A stretch of 64,000 nucleotides of DNA, from NCBI GenBank assembly GCA_025359185.1, contig JANYHF010000019.1, forward strand, positions 1 to 64,000. Direction: 5' to 3'. This document shows positions 18,967-63,615 of the stretch, piece after piece (within the stretch, counting starts at the first letter, position 1; every line of letters begins with the position of its first letter). This DNA comes from Hyphomicrobiaceae bacterium (GTDB taxonomy: Bacteria > Pseudomonadota > Alphaproteobacteria > Rhizobiales > Hyphomicrobiaceae). Below the pieces are notes generated by a model that saw nothing but the letters and a program-made list of their open reading frames with translations, was not told where the DNA came from and ran no database searches. The position numbers and the translations under genes are program-made.

Positions 18967-19002
18967 AAAAACGGCTGCGGCTGTGCCAAACCGGTCGCGC
19001 CA

Positions 19003-19017
19003 TTAAGCGTTCGTTAG
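19003..19017 (+). promoter_or_regulatory. CtrA-like box (TTAA-N7-TTAG)
   Basis: TTAA GCGTTCG TTAG differs by one base from the CtrA recognition pattern TTAA-N7-TTAA. It lies just before the candidate small RNA and 254 bases before rcdA. CtrA boxes usually overlap the -35 region, which fits a start near 19035. RcdA helps degrade CtrA in Caulobacter, so feedback is plausible. The assignment rests on the motif alone. Confidence 0.35.
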
Positions 19018-19029
19018 GCTAGTGCTCGT

Positions 19030-19135
19030 ACAGTCAAAGTCATCCAGTCTCTGGATTCTGAGTGGTCCTGTCCACTCTGTTTGACGCCTCCCTGTTAACT
19101 TCTGAGCCGCTTTTCAGCGGCTCATTTTTTTTGCC
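19030..19135 (+). ncRNA. candidate three-hairpin small RNA between DUF1192 and rcdA
   Basis: The 304-base gap between DUF1192 and rcdA holds no supported protein. It contains a compact chain of stems. ATCCAG-TCT-CTGGAT lies at 19042-19056 and GAGTGG-TCCTGT-CCACTC at 19060-19077. A 26-base single-stranded stretch with CCTCCC follows, then an intrinsic terminator at 19104-19132. This is the usual architecture of a trans-acting sRNA, with an exposed C-rich seed able to pair with Shine-Dalgarno sequences. The 5' end is estimated only. The alternative is the 3' untranslated region of DUF1192 mRNA. No known RNA family was recognised. Confidence 0.45.
19104..19132 (+). terminator. intrinsic terminator
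   Basis: An 8-base stem GAGCCGCT / AGCGGCTC with a TTTC loop is followed by a run of eight T residues. It ends either the candidate sRNA or DUF1192 read-through, before rcdA. Confidence 0.85.
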
Positions 19136-27533: not shown

Positions 27534-28259
27534 ATGCAGTGGGCCGATGAAGGCGTTGTGTTGTCGGTCCGCCCGCACGGCGAGACGGGCGCGGTTGCCG
27601 AGGTGTTCACGCGGGCGCATGGCCGTTATCTAGGCCTCGTGCATGGCGGCCGGGGACGTACCAAGCGGCCCATCCTGCAACCGGGGAACCATGTGACCGC
27701 CGAGTGGCGGGCGCGCATCTCCGAGCAGCTCGGCGTGCTGACGCTGGAGCTGAAACATCCGTTTGCGGCCGAACTCCTGGACCGCCGCCTGGGCCTCGCA
27801 GGCCTCGAATGCCTGACCACGCTGGCCCGACTGCTGCCGGAGCGCGATCCGCACGCCAACTTGTTCGAGGTGACCCTGTTCGTCCTCGGCTTTCTCGGTG
27901 ACGACGAGATCTGGCCCGCGCTCTATGCCCGCTGGGAGCTGGCGTTGCTGCAAGAGCTGGGCTTTGGCCTCGATTTGTCGGCCTGTGCCGTGACCGGTGC
28001 GAACGACTATCTTGCCTATGTCTCGCCGCGTACCGGCCGGGCCGTGTCGGCGGCGGCGGCTGAACCCTACAAGGATCGCTTGCTGCCGCTGCCGGGTCTG
28101 CTCATCGGCGGCGGTGCCCAAGGCGCGCGGCCCGCCGATATCGAAGCGGCGCTGCGGCTGACCGGCCATTTCCTGGAGCGGGATGTGCTGATGCCGCGCG
28201 GCCTCAAGATGCCCGATGCGCGGCGGCGGTTATTGGCAGGGTCCTGCTGGGGATCATAA
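27534..28259 (+). CDS. recO: DNA repair protein RecO
   Basis: The 241-residue protein begins MQWADEGVVLSVRPHGETGAVAEVFTR in segments, the OB-fold start of RecO. It includes GRYLGLVHGGRGR and the helical core ECLTTLARLLPERDPHANLFE. RecO loads RecA onto single-stranded DNA with RecR. The zinc-ribbon region is reduced. The last six residues (GSCWGS) look unlike a RecO tail. An alternative, normal-looking tail (LLVPRGLKMSDARRRLLTA and a stop) is found as an orphan 1.46 kb downstream. An accessory methyltransferase lies between. The gene is probably functional, with its 3' end exchanged during an insertion. Confidence 0.9.
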   Translation: MQWADEGVVLSVRPHGETGAVAEVFTRAHGRYLGLVHGGRGRTKRPILQPGNHVTAEWRARISEQLGVLTLELKHPFAAELLDRRLGLAGLECLTTLARLLPERDPHANLFEVTLFVLGFLGDDEIWPALYARWELALLQELGFGLDLSACAVTGANDYLAYVSPRTGRAVSAAAAEPYKDRLLPLPGLLIGGGAQGARPADIEAALRLTGHFLERDVLMPRGLKMPDARRRLLAGSCWGS

Positions 28260-28450
28260 TGACCCGGGCAGCGGGCAACGGATCAGGTCAGCTAATAAAC
28301 TCGGTGCCGGCCACCTACGGCTTCCGTGAGGTGCCGGTGAAGGGGTTCGTCGAGGCGGTTGCAATCTTTACCGATCGCAAGAGATCGCCCGGTATCGGCG
28401 CTCCTACGGCGCTGCCGATCTGGTGTTCGATCCGCTGCACTATGAGGGGG
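28259..28450 (+). pseudogene. IS21-family transposase (IstA) remnant
   Basis: Directly after recO, one frame reads NSVPATYGFREVPVKGFVEA and then VAIFTDRK. The next frame continues with QEIARYRRSYGAADLVFDPLHY. Together these match the stretch of IS21-type IstA transposases before the DPxHY block. The join needs a frameshift near 28375, and both ends are missing. It is a dead fragment about 190 bases long. It shows that mobile DNA was involved in building this locus. The rest of the gap to 28620 has no recognisable content apart from a T-run and an AAGGAG before the next gene. Confidence 0.6.
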
Positions 28451-28620
28451 TCAAATCTTTCTTGTCCAGCAAGGTGCCTCGACCTCGGCTATTTTGACGA
28501 AATTTCTTCGAGTGGTCCGGTGACAGGACTTGCAGTGACCACAACATGCTTGTCGATCGTCGCATCAAATGATCAAAGAAGAATATGCTGCAAAGTGCTT
28601 TTTTTTCCAAGGAGAGCGAG

Positions 28621-29613
28621 ATGAGCACACCGTCCCAACAAATCCTGCGCATGAGTTTCGGGTTCGCCCTTTCACAGTCTCTGCGTGTTGTCGCTGAGCT
28701 AGGCATCGCTGATCTCCTCGCAACGGGAGAGCGCTCCGCTGACGAGTTGTCTCAGACCACTCGAACAAATGCCGATGCGCTTTATCGCGTCATGCGTCTG
28801 GTAGCCAGCGAAGGCGTGTTTCGCGAAGTATCGCCGCGACGTTTCTCGCAAACGGAACTCAGTGCAACTCTCCGATCCGATCTTCCGTCGAGCCCGCGCA
28901 ATTTCGTGCGCATGATAAACAGCGAACCATTTCAGGCCTTCTCGCAGCTTCTTCATTCTGTTCGAACTGGAGAGCCAGCGTTTGAGCAAGTCTTTGGCGC
29001 TCCGAGGTTTGAGTGGCTCGGGTCTCATCCGGAGCAAGCTGCGCTCTTTCAACAGGCGATGATTGCTTTCAGTCAAGGCAGCAACGATGCGGTGGCAGAA
29101 GCTTACGATTTCAGAGCGTCCCGCTGCGTTGCAGATGTCGGAGGAGGACACGGGCAGCTCCTGTCAGCCATCTTGACCAGGAACTCTCATCTCACAGGAA
29201 TTCTGTTTGATTTACCTGCTGGGATTGCTGCGGCGCGAGCCGAAGTCGGAGGTGCCTTGCCACGCACTGAACTCATCGCGGGCGATTTCTTCGCGAATGT
29301 GCCTGTGGCCGATACCTATATCCTGAAGAAGGTTATCCACGATTGGGACGACGAGCGAGCGTCGGTCATTCTGCGCAACTGCCAAAAGGCGATGCCCAGC
29401 AACGGCAAAGTACTGATCGCAGAAACGATTATGCCGGTCGGCAACGATCCTGATCCGATCAAGGTGCTAGATTTGAATATGCTGGTAGTCCCGGGCGGGA
29501 AGGAACGAACTGAAAGCCAATTTGGAGATTTGCTGTCGCTCGCGGGGTTACGGCTTGAACGTGTTATCGCGACTAAAGCTCCCATCTCGATCCTGGAGGC
29601 ACGCAACGCCTGA
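28621..29613 (+). CDS. SAM-dependent O-methyltransferase, family 2
   Basis: The 330-residue protein has the two-part layout of family 2 O-methyltransferases. The N-terminal winged-helix dimerisation domain includes LGIADLLATGERSADELSQ and ALYRVMRLVASEGVFRE. The C-terminal Rossmann domain has the SAM motif VADVGGGHGQLL. The block KKVIHDWDDERA carries the histidine/acidic catalytic region. Such enzymes methylate small aromatic or secondary-metabolite hydroxyls. AAGGAG precedes the ATG at 28621 with good spacing. Base composition and codon use look less GC-rich than in neighbouring genes. It lies between an IS21 remnant and a duplicated recO tail, so it is almost certainly acquired. The substrate is unknown. 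Confidence 0.88.
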   Translation: MSTPSQQILRMSFGFALSQSLRVVAELGIADLLATGERSADELSQTTRTNADALYRVMRLVASEGVFREVSPRRFSQTELSATLRSDLPSSPRNFVRMINSEPFQAFSQLLHSVRTGEPAFEQVFGAPRFEWLGSHPEQAALFQQAMIAFSQGSNDAVAEAYDFRASRCVADVGGGHGQLLSAILTRNSHLTGILFDLPAGIAAARAEVGGALPRTELIAGDFFANVPVADTYILKKVIHDWDDERASVILRNCQKAMPSNGKVLIAETIMPVGNDPDPIKVLDLNMLVVPGGKERTESQFGDLLSLAGLRLERVIATKAPISILEARNA

Positions 29614-29643
29614 GCGAAAGTCTCGGCTCCAACAGCGGCCCGC

Positions 29644-29703
29644 CTGCTGGTGCCGCGCGGCCTTAAGATGTCGGATGCGCGGCGGCGGTTACTGACGGCG
29701 TAG
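29644..29703 (+). pseudogene. orphan copy of the recO 3' end
   Basis: This stretch encodes LLVPRGLKMSDARRRLLTA followed by TAG. It aligns without gaps to the 3' end of recO at 28185-28240 (47 of 56 bases identical, counted by hand), with most differences in third codon positions. It has no start of its own. It marks the distal end of the insert carrying the methyltransferase and is probably either the original recO tail or a tail imported from a related genome. Confidence 0.8.
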
Positions 29704-29709
29704 TGTGTG

Positions 29710-29774
29710 CTGAGACCCTTCGCGAAGCCCACCGTAACGATGACCTTTGCGGTGGGCTTCGCGAAGGGGCTCAG
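29710..29774. repeat. long inverted repeat between methyltransferase insert and folP
   Basis: Arms of 25 bases at 29710-29734 and 29750-29774 pair with one mismatch around a 15-base loop. The core CCCTTCGCGAAGCCCACC is GC-rich and lies between convergent transcripts. It may stop transcription in both directions. Its CTTCGCG core is shared with the inverted repeats near 7400. Confidence 0.75.
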
Positions 29775-29780
29775 CCTACC

Positions 29781-30869
29781 CTACGCATGACCCGCAAGGC
29801 TCGCCTGGAACACATCCAACGCGGCCTTGGTCTCGCGTACGTCATGCACACGGATGATCTGCACACCTTGTGCGGCACCGACCAGGGCAGCGCCAACGGA
29901 ACCCGAAACGCGATTGGCGGCCACCGGCTCAGCCGTCAGTGTGCCAATGAAGCGTTTGCGCGAGGCGCCGAGCAACACCGGACAGCCGAGGCCGTGAAAC
30001 AGGCTGAGCGACGCCATCAGCTGCAAATTGTGCGTCAGCGTTTTGCCAAAACCGATGCCAGGATCAATGATGATGCGCTCACGAACGATCCCGGCGTCTT
30101 GGCAGGCCGCGATGCGGGCGGCGAGATAGTCATAGATGTCGGTTGGCGCATCGTCGTAGTGCGGATTGTCCTGCATGGTCCTGGGGTCGCCAAGCGCGTG
30201 CATCAGCACCACGGGCACACCCGCTTCGCCCACCACCTCCAGCATCGCCGGATCATGCGTCATGGCGGTCACGTCGTTGATGATATGTGCACCGGCCTCC
30301 AGCGCGCGACGGGCAACCTCGGCCTTGCGCGTGTCGATGGATATGAGCGCTTCGGTCTTGGCCGCCAGCCCTTCGATGACCGGCAGCACACGCGAGAGTT
30401 CACTCTCCAAAGGCGTTGCCAGCGATCCTGGCCGCGTGGACTCGCCACCGATATCGAGTACGCTCGCGCCTTCCTGCACCAGCCGCAGGCCATACGCCAC
30501 GGCCTCGGCGCTTGAGGTGAACTGTCCGCCGTCGGAAAAACTGTCGGGCGTGACGTTGACCACGCCCATCAGTTGGGGCCGGTCGAGCCGCATCCCGGCG
30601 ATGCGGCGGCGCGGGGCGGTGAGGCGCTCAAGGATGTGAGGCGCAGACGCCAGTGCGGGCGATACGTCGCTGTCCCACATCTCGCCCAAAGCACGCAGCC
30701 GCCGGGTCACGATCGTTCCCTGCCGTGTGATGACTTCAAGGCCCAGGAAGTCGAACGGACCATCGCCACACAAAGGCAGCGCGCCCGAGAACCGGCCTTC
30801 GGCTTCGTCCAGCGCGCGCTGGGCGGGCGTTGCAGTAACGAGCCCCGTTGGCCGCAGGTAAATGCGCAT
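29781..30869 (-). CDS. folP: dihydropteroate synthase with N-terminal extension
   Basis: FolP joins para-aminobenzoate to the pterin pyrophosphate in folate synthesis. Core motifs are MGVVNVTPDSFSDGG, VLDIGGESTRPG and the phosphate site GASRKRFIG. The product here is about 362 residues, with roughly 95 residues before the core; such an extension is common in alphaproteobacteria. The ATG at 30869 has AGAGG five bases upstream; the ATG at 30884 is an alternative. The HAD phosphatase gene ends about 20 bases upstream, so both are likely cotranscribed. Confidence 0.93.
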   Translation of the reverse strand: MRIYLRPTGLVTATPAQRALDEAEGRFSGALPLCGDGPFDFLGLEVITRQGTIVTRRLRALGEMWDSDVSPALASAPHILERLTAPRRRIAGMRLDRPQLMGVVNVTPDSFSDGGQFTSSAEAVAYGLRLVQEGASVLDIGGESTRPGSLATPLESELSRVLPVIEGLAAKTEALISIDTRKAEVARRALEAGAHIINDVTAMTHDPAMLEVVGEAGVPVVLMHALGDPRTMQDNPHYDDAPTDIYDYLAARIAACQDAGIVRERIIIDPGIGFGKTLTHNLQLMASLSLFHGLGCPVLLGASRKRFIGTLTAEPVAANRVSGSVGAALVGAAQGVQIIRVHDVRETKAALDVFQASLAGHA

Positions 30870-30888
30870 GCTGGCCTCTGTCATGGCG

Positions 30889-31743
30889 CTACCAGGCCAA
30901 ATGAGCTGTTGCCGCAATGGGGTGCGGACCCTGGCCAGAGAACAGCTTAGCCAGGGTGCGCTTATTTAGCCCCTCGCTGGGACTCAAATGAATACCCGAG
31001 GCGACAAACAACGCATCGATGCCGAAACGCCGGGCGCCCAGTATGTCCGTATGCAATCCATCGCCGATGGCCAGCACGTCGCGTTTGGAGATCGCTGCCC
31101 CCCGCACTTGCGCGGCACGGGCCATTGCGGCCTCGTAGATCGGCGCGTGCGGCTTGCCTGCATAAGCAACGTGGCCACCCATGGCTTCGTAGGCTTGCCC
31201 GATGGCTCCCGCGCAATAGCAGATTGCCGCCCCGCGCTCGACCACGATGTCGGGATTGGCGCAGATCATCGGCAGGTTGCGCTCGCGCATGGCAGCGAGC
31301 TGATCTTTGTAACTGTCCGGTGTCTCCGTCACATCGTCGATGAGCCCCGTGCAGACCACGGCTTCGGCCCCGTCAATGCCGGTCAGCCGCGCGCCGGTCC
31401 CCGCGAACAGAGAGCTGTCGCGCTCCGGCCCCAGATGAAACAGCGGGCGTTTGCCATAGTCCACGATGAGGGCCCGCGTGACATCGCCCGAGGTCACGAT
31501 GGCATCATGAGCTTCGGCGGAGACGCCGAGGTTGGCGATCTGCCGCTTAACATCGTCACAAGGACGCGGCGCGTTGGTGATGAGTATGGCAGTGCCGCCA
31601 GCGCCACGAAACGCGACCAGCGCTGCTGAGGCGGCAGGATACGCCGCCACGCCATTGTGGAGCACGCCCCATATATCACAGAGCCACACCGGGTACCGGC
31701 CGGCCAGAGACCGCGCGCCGTCTATAGTGGGAATGCTCGTCAT
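30889..31743 (-). CDS. HAD-superfamily class IIA phosphatase
   Basis: The 284-residue protein begins with the HAD nucleophile motif in CDIWGVLHNG. It continues with LITNAPRP (motif II) and AGKPHAPIYEAA with the lysine, and ends with IGDGLHTDILGARRFGID (motif IV). This is the NagD/4-nitrophenylphosphatase-like subfamily with a class II cap, close to the alphaproteobacterial TIGR01459 group. It should dephosphorylate a sugar phosphate or nucleotide in the cytosol. The natural substrate is unknown. The ATG at 31743 gives the usual length. Confidence 0.85.
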   Translation of the reverse strand: MTSIPTIDGARSLAGRYPVWLCDIWGVLHNGVAAYPAASAALVAFRGAGGTAILITNAPRPCDDVKRQIANLGVSAEAHDAIVTSGDVTRALIVDYGKRPLFHLGPERDSSLFAGTGARLTGIDGAEAVVCTGLIDDVTETPDSYKDQLAAMRERNLPMICANPDIVVERGAAICYCAGAIGQAYEAMGGHVAYAGKPHAPIYEAAMARAAQVRGAAISKRDVLAIGDGLHTDILGARRFGIDALFVASGIHLSPSEGLNKRTLAKLFSGQGPHPIAATAHLAW

Positions 31744-54905: not shown

Positions 54906-55574
54906 ATGACCACCAGCCCGGCCGCCACCCTCCCGCCTGTCGCAGCCACCCCCATCGACGATCTGGAACTGGCCGCGCTGATCTCAAGCAAAATCTGCCA
55001 CGATGTGATCGGCCCCGTCGGTGCGATCTACAACGGGCTGGAAGTGCTGGCCGACGACGACGACGAGCAGTCGCGCGCCTACGCTCTTGAAGTCATCCGC
55101 AATTTCACGGAGCAGGCCTCTGCAAAAGTGCAGTTCGCGCGCTTTGCCTTTGGCGCATCGGGTTCCGTTGGCGCTACCGTCGATCTGGGGAACGCGGAGC
55201 AGATCGCCCGTGGCTTCATTGGCCAGGGCAAGCACAAGCTGACCTGGAACTGCGCGCCTGGCCAGATGCCAAAGGACCGGGTCAAACTGCTTCTGAACCT
55301 GATCGCCTGCGGCGTCACAGCCTTACCACGCGGCGGCGAGATCGTCGCCTCAATCCGTGGCCGGATTGAAGACCCCATCATTGAAGTGCGCTGCATCGGC
55401 GTCAGCCCGCGCCTGCCGCAGCACCTGAAAGAATTCCTCAGTGTGCCGATGGTGCACAAGATCGACGCCCTCAGCGTGCAGCCCTATTACACGACGCGGC
55501 TGGCCAAAACGGCGGGGCTGCGGCTGAGCGTGGGGCTCGAGGGCGTGGATGTCGTGATGAGCGCGGTGCGGTAG
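54906..55574 (+). CDS. chpT: histidine phosphotransferase ChpT
   Basis: The 222-residue protein has the ChpT H-box SSKICHDVIGPVGAIYNGLE, with the phosphorylated histidine at residue 32. The downstream part resembles a degenerate HATPase (KLLLNLIACGVTALPRGG) that forms the response-regulator docking surface without ATPase activity. In Caulobacter ChpT passes phosphate from CckA to CtrA and CpdR. GGAACC lies before the ATG at 54906; an ATG at 54843 would add 21 residues. A second, diverged copy of its last 40 bases is found after the following toxin-antitoxin genes. Confidence 0.86.
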   Translation: MTTSPAATLPPVAATPIDDLELAALISSKICHDVIGPVGAIYNGLEVLADDDDEQSRAYALEVIRNFTEQASAKVQFARFAFGASGSVGATVDLGNAEQIARGFIGQGKHKLTWNCAPGQMPKDRVKLLLNLIACGVTALPRGGEIVASIRGRIEDPIIEVRCIGVSPRLPQHLKEFLSVPMVHKIDALSVQPYYTTRLAKTAGLRLSVGLEGVDVVMSAVR

Positions 55575-55633
55575 GAGAACCAGCCGCCGGGTTGCTTGAC
55601 CAAAAGCATCGCTTCGCTCATCATGGATGGGTC

Positions 55634-55876
55634 ATGGACTACTCCAAAATCATCACGATCGAACCTGGCAAGCGAAGCGGCAAACCCATCATCCGCGGCC
55701 TGCGGATTACTGTGCAGGATGTGCTGGAATACTTGGCGTCCGGCATGACGGAAGCAGAAATTCTCACCGATTTCCCCGAGCTGACCAGTCAAGACATCCG
55801 GGCCTGCCTCGCCTTCGCCGCTGATCGCGAGCGCCGGCTGATGGGCGCCGGTCCTGTCATCGCTGTTGCAGAGTGA
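55634..55876 (+). CDS. DUF433 antitoxin
   Basis: The 80-residue protein starts MDYSKIITIEPGKRSGKP and continues IIRGLRITVQDVLEYLASG, then FPELTSQDIRACLAFAADRE. This is DUF433, a small helix-turn-helix fold that serves as the antitoxin (VapB45-like) to DUF5615 PIN toxins. The stop overlaps the toxin GTG. The pair lies between chpT and its orphan 3' copy, so it has been inserted. Confidence 0.87.
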   Translation: MDYSKIITIEPGKRSGKPIIRGLRITVQDVLEYLASGMTEAEILTDFPELTSQDIRACLAFAADRERRLMGAGPVIAVAE

Positions 55877-56211
55877 GTCTGCTGTTCGACGAAAATCTAT
55901 CTCTCACTTTGGCTGGGCGGCTGTCAGACGTGTTCCCAGGCGCTGAGCAGGTTATCTTGGTCGGGCTTGAGCACGCTGCGGACGACGTTATCTGGGCGCA
56001 CGCAGCCGTCGCAAACCAAACCATTGTGACGAAAGACGCTGACTTCGCCCAGCGCAGCTTTCTCTATGGCCCGCCGCCTAATGTGGTTTGGCTGCGCATC
56101 GGCAACGCCTCGACAGGCGAAGTGGAAACGCTGCTGCGACGCCGGGCCGATGATATTGATTTGCTGCAAACAGGCGGCATCGCGGCAGGGATACTGATCA
56201 TTGAAGCGTAG
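55873..56211 (+). CDS. DUF5615 PIN-like toxin
   Basis: The 112-residue protein has the start LLFDENLSLTLAGRL, with the first acidic residues. ADDVIWAHAAVANQTIVTKDADF contains the other acidic residues (given in part), and then comes PPPNVVWLRIGN. This is DUF5615 (Mut7-C-like PIN fold), the VapC45-like partner of DUF433 antitoxins. It probably cleaves RNA. The GTG start overlaps the antitoxin stop by four bases. Confidence 0.87.
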   Translation: MSLLFDENLSLTLAGRLSDVFPGAEQVILVGLEHAADDVIWAHAAVANQTIVTKDADFAQRSFLYGPPPNVVWLRIGNASTGEVETLLRRRADDIDLLQTGGIAAGILIIEA

Positions 56212-56217
56212 GCGCGA

Positions 56218-56260
56218 GGGATCGATGGCGTCGATGTGGTGATGAGCGCTGTGGGGTGGG
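56218..56260 (+). pseudogene. orphan copy of the chpT 3' end
   Basis: The bases encode GIDGVDVVMSAVG, matching the ChpT tail GLEGVDVVMSAVR and its stop, which has become TGG. The DNA aligns without gaps to 55533-55575 at 36 of 43 positions (hand count), mostly differing at third codon positions. It marks the distal end of the toxin-antitoxin insert. Confidence 0.78.
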
Positions 56261-56332
56261 GAAAACTGGCGACACTGCCGCAAACATCATTCTAACCGGT
56301 TCGTCATATACGGACGTCCCCCGCGACACCCC

Positions 56333-56402: not shown

Positions 56403-56780
56403 ATGCGCCACTGCCTGATCGTCGATGACAGCGATGTTGTGCGCAAGGTTGCAAAGCGCCTGCTGGAAGAGTTCCACATGACCTCGACCGAAGCAGAGAG
56501 CGCGGCAGACGCCATGGAGGCCTGCCGGCGCGCCATGCCGGACGTGATCCTGCTCGACTGGCACACCTCCCCCGCCATGACCAGCCACGATTTCATGTCG
56601 CTGCTGCGTCATACGCCCGGTGGCGATCAGCCGATCGTGATTTATTGCACAACGGACAATGATCATGGTGACATCACGCGCGCCCGCCAGAACGGCGCCA
56701 ACGAGATTTTGATGAAGCCGTTCGACAAAGAATCGATGGGTAAGAAGCTGCGCGCGGCGGGGCTGGACGGAATCGTTTAA
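56403..56780 (+). CDS. single-domain response regulator (CheY-like)
   Basis: The 125-residue protein consists of one receiver domain. CLIVDDSDVVRKVAKRLLEE gives the acidic pocket, VILLDWHTSP the phosphorylated Asp52, and ILMKPFD the conserved Lys105. There is no output domain. It is downstream of chpT, from which it was probably separated by the toxin-antitoxin insert. It may be a partner of ChpT or of a chemotaxis-like kinase. Confidence 0.87.
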   Translation: MRHCLIVDDSDVVRKVAKRLLEEFHMTSTEAESAADAMEACRRAMPDVILLDWHTSPAMTSHDFMSLLRHTPGGDQPIVIYCTTDNDHGDITRARQNGANEILMKPFDKESMGKKLRAAGLDGIV

Positions 56781-56842: not shown

Positions 56843-57301
56843 ATGCGAAAAATCATCTCCGAGGCCGTCAAGACCGCCATGAAAGCGGGCGACAAGGCGC
56901 GGCTGTCCACTCTACGGCTGATCAGTGCCAAGCTGAAAGATATCGATCTTGCGGCCCAGGGGCTCGGCAAGGCGGAGGCGAGCGATATCGAGCTTGTCGA
57001 GGCGCTGGCCAAGATGGTCAAGCAGCGGCGTGAATCTATCGAACATTTCAAGACCGGCAACCGGCCCGATCTGGTGGCCATCGAGGAGGCCGAGATCACG
57101 GTCATCGAGGGCTATCTGCCCAAGGGGCTGAGCGCTGGCGAGGTGGCCGCGGCCATTGATGCCGCCATCAAGGAGGCCGGCGCAGCCACGCAGAAGGACA
57201 TGGGCAAGGTGATTGCGCTTTTGAAGGAGCGCCACGCCGGGCAAATGGATTTTGGCGCGGTGAGCGGGCTGGTGAAGGCGAAGCTGAACGTAAAGGTGTA
57301 G
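56843..57301 (+). CDS. GatB/YqeY domain protein
   Basis: The 152-residue protein matches the YqeY family: MRKIISEAVKTAMKAGDKARLSTLRLI (partly), RRESIEHF, IEGYLPKGLS and KDMGKVIALLKERHAGQMDF. YqeY is related to the tRNA-binding tail of GatB. In alphaproteobacteria it usually precedes dnaG, which is not seen here. Its stop is followed by a perfect hairpin of the GGTGTCAGGCACC family. Function probably tRNA-related, but not proved. Confidence 0.9.
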   Translation: MRKIISEAVKTAMKAGDKARLSTLRLISAKLKDIDLAAQGLGKAEASDIELVEALAKMVKQRRESIEHFKTGNRPDLVAIEEAEITVIEGYLPKGLSAGEVAAAIDAAIKEAGAATQKDMGKVIALLKERHAGQMDFGAVSGLVKAKLNVKV

Positions 57302-57307
57302 GTTTGA

Positions 57308-57342
57308 CCCGGTGTCAGGCACCGCTGGTGCCTGACACCGGG
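57308..57342. repeat. GGTGTCAGGCACC inverted repeat, copy 2 (perfect)
   Basis: A perfect 16-base stem (CCCGGTGTCAGGCACC and its complement) encloses the loop GCT. It lies seven bases after the YqeY stop and probably works as a hairpin at the transcript end, without a T-run. Confidence 0.85.
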
Positions 57343-62777: not shown

Positions 62778-63578
62778 ATGTCAAAACTGCGTGTACGCCC
62801 GAGCGGAACATCTGGCCGCATCACCCACATCACGCCGCAATCGGCAGGATGGATCTATGTGGGGTTCGATGTCCACAAGCTTGCCAAGGGCGCGGGCGCC
62901 GAGGGCAATGATGCGGCGCGCGAGACCTGCCTCGTGCTCATCTCGGGCAAGGCGCGCTTCACCGCCGATGGCAAGGATTTCGGCCTTCTGGGCGAGCGCA
63001 CCACTCCGTTCGAAGGACGACCATCGTCCGTCTACGTACCGGCGGGAGCCGCGTGGTCGGTGATCGCCGAAACCCCCGTGGAACTCGCTGTCTGTTCGTC
63101 CCCCGGCAAACCCGGCGCGCGTCCTGCGCGGCTGATCTCGCCCGCCGGCTGCACCCAGGAGACGCGCGGAAAAGGCTCCAACACGCGCTATGTGACGAAC
63201 ATCCTCTCCGGCACCTCGGACGCCGATTCGCTGCTGGTCGTTGAAGTCATCACGCCCGGTGGCAATTCCTCCTCCTATCCTCCGCACAAGCACGATCAGA
63301 ACAACCCGCCGCATGAAACGCTGCTGGAGGAAACCTACTACCACCGCCTCAACCCGCCCCAAGGCTTCGCCTTTCAGCGCGTGTACACGGATGACCGCAC
63401 CCTGGATGAAGCCATGGTGCTAGAAGACGGCGACGTGACACTAGTGCCACGCGGCTATCATCCGTGTGCGGCTACGCACGGCTACGATCTCTACTACCTC
63501 AACGTCATGGCCGGCCCCGTGAAGCAGTGGCGCTTCCACAATGACCCGGCGCATGAGTGGCTGCTGAAAAAGGTGTGA
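62778..63578 (+). CDS. iolB: 5-deoxy-glucuronate isomerase
   Basis: The 266-residue enzyme converts 5-deoxyglucuronate to 5-dehydro-2-deoxygluconate. Its cupin metal site includes SSYPPHKHD and HETLLEETYYHRL. The block EDGDVTLVPRGYHPCAATHGYD is also characteristic (given as a block name, residues about 223-244). AGAGGT lies seven bases before the ATG at 62778. It is the likely second gene of the iolC transcript. A GGTGTCAGGCACC hairpin follows the stop. Confidence 0.93.
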   Translation: MSKLRVRPSGTSGRITHITPQSAGWIYVGFDVHKLAKGAGAEGNDAARETCLVLISGKARFTADGKDFGLLGERTTPFEGRPSSVYVPAGAAWSVIAETPVELAVCSSPGKPGARPARLISPAGCTQETRGKGSNTRYVTNILSGTSDADSLLVVEVITPGGNSSSYPPHKHDQNNPPHETLLEETYYHRLNPPQGFAFQRVYTDDRTLDEAMVLEDGDVTLVPRGYHPCAATHGYDLYYLNVMAGPVKQWRFHNDPAHEWLLKKV

Positions 63579-63579
63579 C

Positions 63580-63609
63580 GGTGTCAGGCACCAGGAGGTG
63601 CCGGACACC
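63580..63609. repeat. GGTGTCAGGCACC inverted repeat, copy 3
   Basis: GGTGTCAGGCACC and GGTGCCGGACACC pair with one mismatch around a four-base loop. It starts one base after the iolB stop and lies before the convergent mmcB end. Confidence 0.8.
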
Positions 63610-63615
63610 GGCGCA

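Follow-up and report, generated by a model that had tools for sequence, protein, structure and literature searches.

Given that an accessory O-methyltransferase gene lies behind recO and is itself followed by a second copy of the recO 3′ end, we asked how a single accessory gene could have come to rest between two ends of the same housekeeping gene. The locus was analyzed within a window of 64,000 nucleotides, i.e., the opening 64 kb of a 98-kb contig in a 4.04-Mb assembly of 125 contigs; elsewhere this window also holds a match to the small RNA BjrC1505 (18994-19130; Rfam RF02356, 80 bits). An earlier, sequence-only reading had proposed that the incoming segment replaced the end of recO and pushed the old end downstream, in the manner of integrative elements, which at gene 3′ ends leave a repeat and rebuild the gene end from the incoming DNA. 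The relatives used for comparison belong to other genera (of the same family, with a few of the same order; those with names in the recO comparison are alphaproteobacteria in the main), the host genus being represented by this genome alone.

The two ends of recO and the DNA between them

recO (27534-28259, plus strand, with RecO_N and RecO_C domains; present 3′ end ...RRRLLAGSCWGS*) has a single match genome-wide, and the repeat of its 3′ end farther downstream proved to be real. The tail in use (28185-28241, plus strand) and the downstream copy (29644-29700) are identical at 48 of 57 positions in register, at a spacing of 1,459 bases. A repeat search returned the pair as 28186-28242 and 29645-29701 at 86% identity, and BLAST against the window gave 90% over 50 bases (E 3e-14). 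Outside the repeat, in-register identity falls to chance level within ~10 bases on both sides. When 300 random 57-mers were drawn from the window, their best match anywhere in it was at most 41 (vs 48 for the recO tails); of 4,000 random 57-mers, one reached 48 within 7 kb, in a sample that may contain the recO repeat itself. The downstream copy lies in recO’s frame, and this orphan tail (29644-29703, plus strand) is translated as LLVPRGLKMSDARRRLLTA*, with a TAG stop at 29701-29703. The longest identical run between the tails is 18 bases and 6 of the 18 aligned codons differ; contrary to the earlier description of mostly synonymous changes, just two of these six are synonymous. A possible upstream extension of the orphan, in which AAR before 29644 resembled the family pattern, was dropped, as random sequence scored equally well or better at a rate of 0.05-0.12.

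The sequence-only reading had also drawn attention to the residues GSCWGS, with which recO now ends. By eye these do appear unlike the family, at the point where the repeat ends, yet the stretch is variable within the family (an alignment of 67 rows, i.e., recO and 66 relatives, of which L012 and L039 are apparently one contig), and the length of the present tail is ordinary. The stop of the orphan, said to be a proper one, is present but falls inside a dispersed palindrome (29698-29786) of 89 bases with GCGTAG at each end, which occurs at 15 further places in the genome (26 matches at 16 places, both orientations counted). The left end of the palindrome provides the stop of the orphan, and its right end that of folP (29781-30917, minus strand, Pterin_bind), which is convergent with recO. 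At 10 of the 14 ends of seven other copies, an open frame of 100 aa or longer terminates at -2 to +15 from the end of the palindrome, a count in which one frame, of 101 aa, is doubtful and two frames compete at one end; four clear stops use TAG at +5. Because other copies supply gene stops in the same way, a recO gene that ends in the palindrome opposite folP would be the older layout, and by its structure the downstream copy seems to be the earlier of the two recO ends. In this respect the earlier proposal held up: an accessory segment does lie behind recO, and the old end, sharing its palindrome with folP, was probably left downstream.

The palindrome has GTAG ends, the motif of REP elements mobilized by RAYT transposase. 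The assembly (97% complete) contained no match to a RAYT gene (Y1_Tnp, PF01797) in a search that was positive in 5 of 14 control genomes. Across the genome, the GCGTAG palindrome is frequent at gene ends as a source of stop codons, with some copies serving both sides. A different palindrome (GGTGTCAGGCACC...) lies just 3′ of two gene ends in the window, at 57300-57341 and 63571-63611.

Between the two tails lie an IS21 remnant and the methyltransferase gene, as the sequence-only reading had it. By blastn, the remnant (28299-28443, plus strand, 145 bases) matches the interior of istA on two Methylorubrum plasmids, at 76% and 73% identity; it maps inside the istA of ISMdi7 from Methylorubrum extorquens DM4, and has no second copy in the genome at the DNA level. 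A complete IS21 element has istA and istB between terminal repeats; here the similarity amounts to ~145 bases of istA. The methyltransferase (28621-29613, plus strand, with Dimerisation and Methyltransf_2 domains) has its best plasmid relatives in Mesorhizobium sp. AR02 (65.7% identity) and Rhizobium sullae (64.5%), and, among 101 further genomes from its family, is matched in 38, at ~40% at best. Its lower GC content is likewise borne out (55.6% vs 62.6% for the window), and its GC3 is 57%, as compared to 80% in recO, 77% in a TPR gene, 75% in folP and 62% in a nearby aminotransferase gene. Since this last neighbor is low as well, base composition is weak evidence alone, and it is mainly on account of its foreign relatives that we take the methyltransferase to be a probable acquisition. 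The absence of a recombinase from the insert, also noted earlier, was upheld by a Pfam scan of two frames: the istA transposase remnant apart, no recombinase gene was found, one frame (28259-28621) having no Pfam match and the other being the methyltransferase.

Turning to the relatives, we found a second recO tail in none of 100 recO loci, which together offer 906 kb of downstream DNA (at least 1.5 kb in 96 loci and at least 10 kb in 62). A 30-bp match in the locus L215 was rejected as a second tail, being a dispersed repeat. The TPR gene, folP and the methyltransferase were absent from the vicinity of recO in all relatives’ loci tested, and a single locus held an aminotransferase match (29%), ~12 kb away; as the tested loci are without its neighbor genes, the recO neighborhood appears particular to this genome. 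era, which adjoins recO in 4 of 5 relatives among those listed, lies elsewhere in this genome (G000:C22:82915-83820), followed by a frame that we take to be dnaE-like.

Displaced tails at chpT, fmdA and rpoD

Another such case occurs elsewhere in the window. The histidine phosphotransferase gene chpT (54906-55574, plus strand, HPTransfase) has as its closest NCBIfam model HisPtaseChptBrucRhz, at 231.3 bits, under the cut-off of 240. Behind it lies, as cargo, a DUF433 and DUF5615 pair (55637-56211, plus strand, by Pfam), which presumably resembles a toxin-antitoxin module and has no match in NCBIfam or PADLOC; relatives of the DUF5615 member were found in 9 of 100 other genomes of the family, the best at 45%. 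Then come an orphan chpT tail whose stop codon is gone (56218-56271, plus strand; 78% over 54 bases to 55533-55586; reading GIDGVDVVMSAVGW...) and a response regulator gene (56403-56780, plus strand, Response_reg). We compared 29 relatives with the chpT locus, out of 95 others with a match, using flanks of 1.5 kb. The response regulator follows chpT in 19 of them; in 18 its distance to the stop of chpT is 90-264 bp, and in the nineteenth, where a premature stop served as the reference, it is 603 bp; in the other 10 it was not within the flank. In the window, the position equivalent to the stop of the orphan lies ~144 bp from the regulator. The DUF433/DUF5615 pair was found in the flank of none of the 29, such that at chpT an insert-free allele with a single copy of the target exists in other genera (regulator in 19/29, cargo in 0/29). 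Relatives without the cargo that nevertheless carry both tails, which the sequence-only reading had named as counter-evidence, were encountered neither in the 100 recO loci nor in these 29.

A wider scan used the rule that an in-frame copy of a gene end lies downstream of the gene, with almost no reading frame before the copy. In this genome, 833,640 bases (the window and 40 stretches, with 1-kb overlaps) yielded the recO and chpT cases only. In relatives, 998,867 bases, all around recO, yielded two further cases, at fmdA and rpoD, and 400,000 further bases of G060, the genome with the fmdA case, held no displaced tail, making a total of four in ~2.2 Mb drawn from one family plus a few relatives within the same order. 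The rule flagged 22 + 7 pairs, 27 of 29 of which were rechecked by reading frame; the two others share one 340-aa frame with a checked third. Apart from the four displaced tails, the rechecked pairs are paralogs or internal repeats that share long frames, or else dispersed short repeats lacking a gene frame in common. In this recheck, the automatic frame for chpT fell on the opposite strand, as the true frame contains a stop, and its frame was established separately. We also considered the 20 repeat pairs in 8 stretches of E. coli K-12, 400 kb in all; when coordinates were set against the annotation, not one of them read as a displaced tail. This result shows no difference in rate, since the frequency found here predicts ~0.7 for that amount of DNA.

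In the fmdA case (L146:1051-4604), a tail copy of 209 bp (85%) lies beyond a FadL/OmpP1-like gene, and no second fmdA tail was found in the sister genomes G058 and G020 (12.9 kb searched). In the rpoD case (L162:7997-8382, in G065), a C-terminal fragment of a beta-lactamase-family gene separates the gene from a tail copy of 84 bp (79%), and the sister genome G070 (L178:3547-7022) carries a complete beta-lactamase-family gene ~0.5 kb behind rpoD. Separately, an 83% repeat of 54 bases (1621-1673 and 2383-2436 of L139, in G007) was seen behind a beta-lactamase-family gene. All four cases share one anatomy, namely a gene with a complete tail, the cargo, a short in-frame tail and the downstream DNA; the four target genes are unrelated, and all copies are 3′ ends. 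As the rule covered 3′ gene ends, the bias towards them is an impression.

The distance from the cargo stop to the orphan tail is 30 bases at recO, 6 at chpT, and 4 and 8 at fmdA and rpoD, respectively; a cargo stop so close to the orphan (4-30 bases) may point to where the joining occurred. An orphan that starts a few bases past the cargo stop in four of four cases would also suit a full gene duplication, whereby a second recO behind the cargo was deleted down to its tail. However, no larger one-sided remnant was recognized among the pairs flagged in the ~2.2 Mb, the tails measuring just ~50-210 bases, and we consider such a history highly improbable.

Direct repeats that flank foreign DNA at a gene 3′ end, and the confinement of the four cases to 3′ ends under a scan whose rule covered 3′ ends, are features that could stem from a mobile element which integrated site-specifically at the 3′ end of recO and has since lost its integrase. 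Against this stand the scanned frames, where no recombinase gene was found besides the istA remnant, the 100 relatives’ recO loci, none of which is occupied at the same site in the 906 kb of downstream DNA searched, and the four unrelated targets. Furthermore, the 18-base core matched four contigs in IMG/VR, none with a RecO match and none similar past ~27 bases. The likening to integrative elements in the sequence-only reading is not supported, and site-specific entry seems to us quite improbable. Among the open-access literature matches listed, we found no paper on recO as an integration site.

Decay of the tails and the route of entry

At fmdA and rpoD the tails differ by 6 and 5 amino acids, respectively, and in all 11 instances it is the orphan that departs from two sister genomes. 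Judging from these comparisons, the orphan tails are decaying, and as they decay, part of the divergence between tails (now 84% identical, 48/57, at recO and 78% at chpT) would have arisen after entry; that the two tails stem from different strains or species, as the sequence-only reading suggested, is a possibility. Where the two sisters agree, the synonymous differences at fmdA and rpoD, counted by hand, match the orphan in 6 instances, the gene in 5 and neither in 1, and given this split they name no donor tail. In rpoD codons 9-16 the gene tail differs from both sisters, with which the orphan mostly agrees; this short stretch hints that the gene tail is the incoming one, while codons 24-27 run in the opposite direction.

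The reading that we favor, with moderate confidence, is an additive homologous integration by a single crossover, of which the recO-methyltransferase block would be the scar. A fragment in which a recO 3′ end was joined to the methyltransferase gene and the IS21 remnant would have entered as a circle, or been circularized, and would have recombined once with the resident recO tail by means of the host machinery. Through this crossover, recO would have gained the incoming end, and the resident end, joined to the palindrome and folP, would have been stranded downstream, where it would decay. At both recO and chpT the gene end is found on either side of the foreign DNA, with the right copy on native downstream DNA, as is characteristic of a single crossover. 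That the molecule was circular, that it crossed over once and that the present recO tail came from a donor are inferences; a circularization joint would explain why the orphan starts right after the cargo. An identity of 18 bases is short for ordinary RecA exchange, so the tails would have been more alike at entry, or would have paired by another mechanism. We found no donor. Considering the IS21 remnant, a transposon could once have been involved. ComEC is present in the genome but says little here, because the same search was positive in 10 of 14 control genomes.

A precedent for this outcome exists in E. coli conjugation, in an experiment that tested homology-facilitated illegitimate recombination. 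There, PCR on 60 recombinants yielded, in 56 of them, the product expected when part of the homologous gene end is duplicated on both sides of foreign DNA, the duplications measuring 109-950 bp in 14 sequenced clones (PMC3240628). That report explains the result by one crossover with a circle missing part of the fragment, the loss being due, probably, to linearization, degradation and recircularization (PMC3240628). A circular intermediate was likewise proposed for the displacement of rhs tips (PMC2935791).

A linear fragment could instead have entered by homology-facilitated illegitimate recombination, with an exchange inside recO and an illegitimate joining inside the resident tail, such that both the recO 3′ part and the cargo would be donor DNA. 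This would account for a recombinase-free entry with a displaced tail, and one study invokes it for displaced effector ends at Vibrio type VI loci (PMC5361080); yet the outcome that the E. coli report sets out for this process is an insertion with a deletion and without duplication (PMC3240628). At rpoD, moreover, no long foreign stretch is evident upstream of the repeat: compared with G070, the gene is identical at 54/60 and 56/60 positions in the two stretches before the tail and then at 49/60 in the tail, a level that falls within the spread of values along the rest of the gene. Overall, we regard entry by the linear route as unlikely.

Another possibility is an insertion with long target duplication, as reportedly described by Nobusato et al. 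in 2000, or a copying of the tail upon insertion. In either event the tails would at first have been identical and native, with the orphan diverging later, which agrees with the decay of the orphans and with the about even (6 to 5) split of synonymous differences at fmdA and rpoD. Such duplications are described for restriction-modification genes of Helicobacter pylori (PMC1643837). Conversely, the recO residues that are unlike the family at the repeat’s limit (by eye, in a variable stretch) suggest that part of the present end may be non-native. In addition, the differences between tails at recO and chpT avoid second codon positions (3/18, or 0/13 once three boundary or stop codons are removed), as opposed to 8/37 at fmdA and rpoD; the counts are small, and the recO/chpT pattern is compatible with two selected alleles. 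We judge duplication of the tail to be improbable to the same degree as the linear route, and place the single crossover ahead of both.

A possible wider route and its known counterparts

More tentatively, and with some doubt, we suggest that accessory genes may settle singly behind core genes of bacterial chromosomes by a general route that needs no recombinase, and that displaced 3′ tails could be its scars. The target would be any gene end of which a homologous piece is present on the incoming DNA, the survivors would be those in which the core gene received a working end, and the scar would mark the point of entry as its decay marks the age. Single-gene acquisitions usually leave no trace of their arrival; a displaced, decaying tail, for which a simple scan suffices, would reveal where and in which direction the gene came in and would serve as a rough clock. 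If such tails are common, part of the single accessory genes behind housekeeping genes would have entered via host recombination and not on mobile elements. As judged against the open-access literature, and with an earlier description being possible, what appears to be new is that one type of scar occurs four times within a single family, at housekeeping genes and with cargo unrelated to them.

Insertions with long target duplication are alike in that a direct repeat exceeding transposon target duplications flanks an accessory gene; those described concern H. pylori restriction-modification genes, whereas the present cases have varied cargo and copies of 78-86% identity (PMC1643837, PMC2749054, PMC3154945). 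Displacement of Rhs C-terminal ends (PMC2935791) and of type VI effector ends (PMC5361080) likewise leaves an old 3′ end downstream of an intact gene with an incoming new end. Those, however, are toxin-type loci with variable tips, Rhs being a polymorphic toxin with a conserved core and a variable tip, while the targets here are the housekeeping genes recO, chpT, fmdA and rpoD, which keep the same protein end and carry unrelated cargo. Single-crossover integration in E. coli also places foreign DNA between duplicates of a gene end with no recombinase of an element (PMC3240628); that case is a laboratory construct with the end of lacZ, whereas those at recO, chpT, fmdA and rpoD are natural and diverged.
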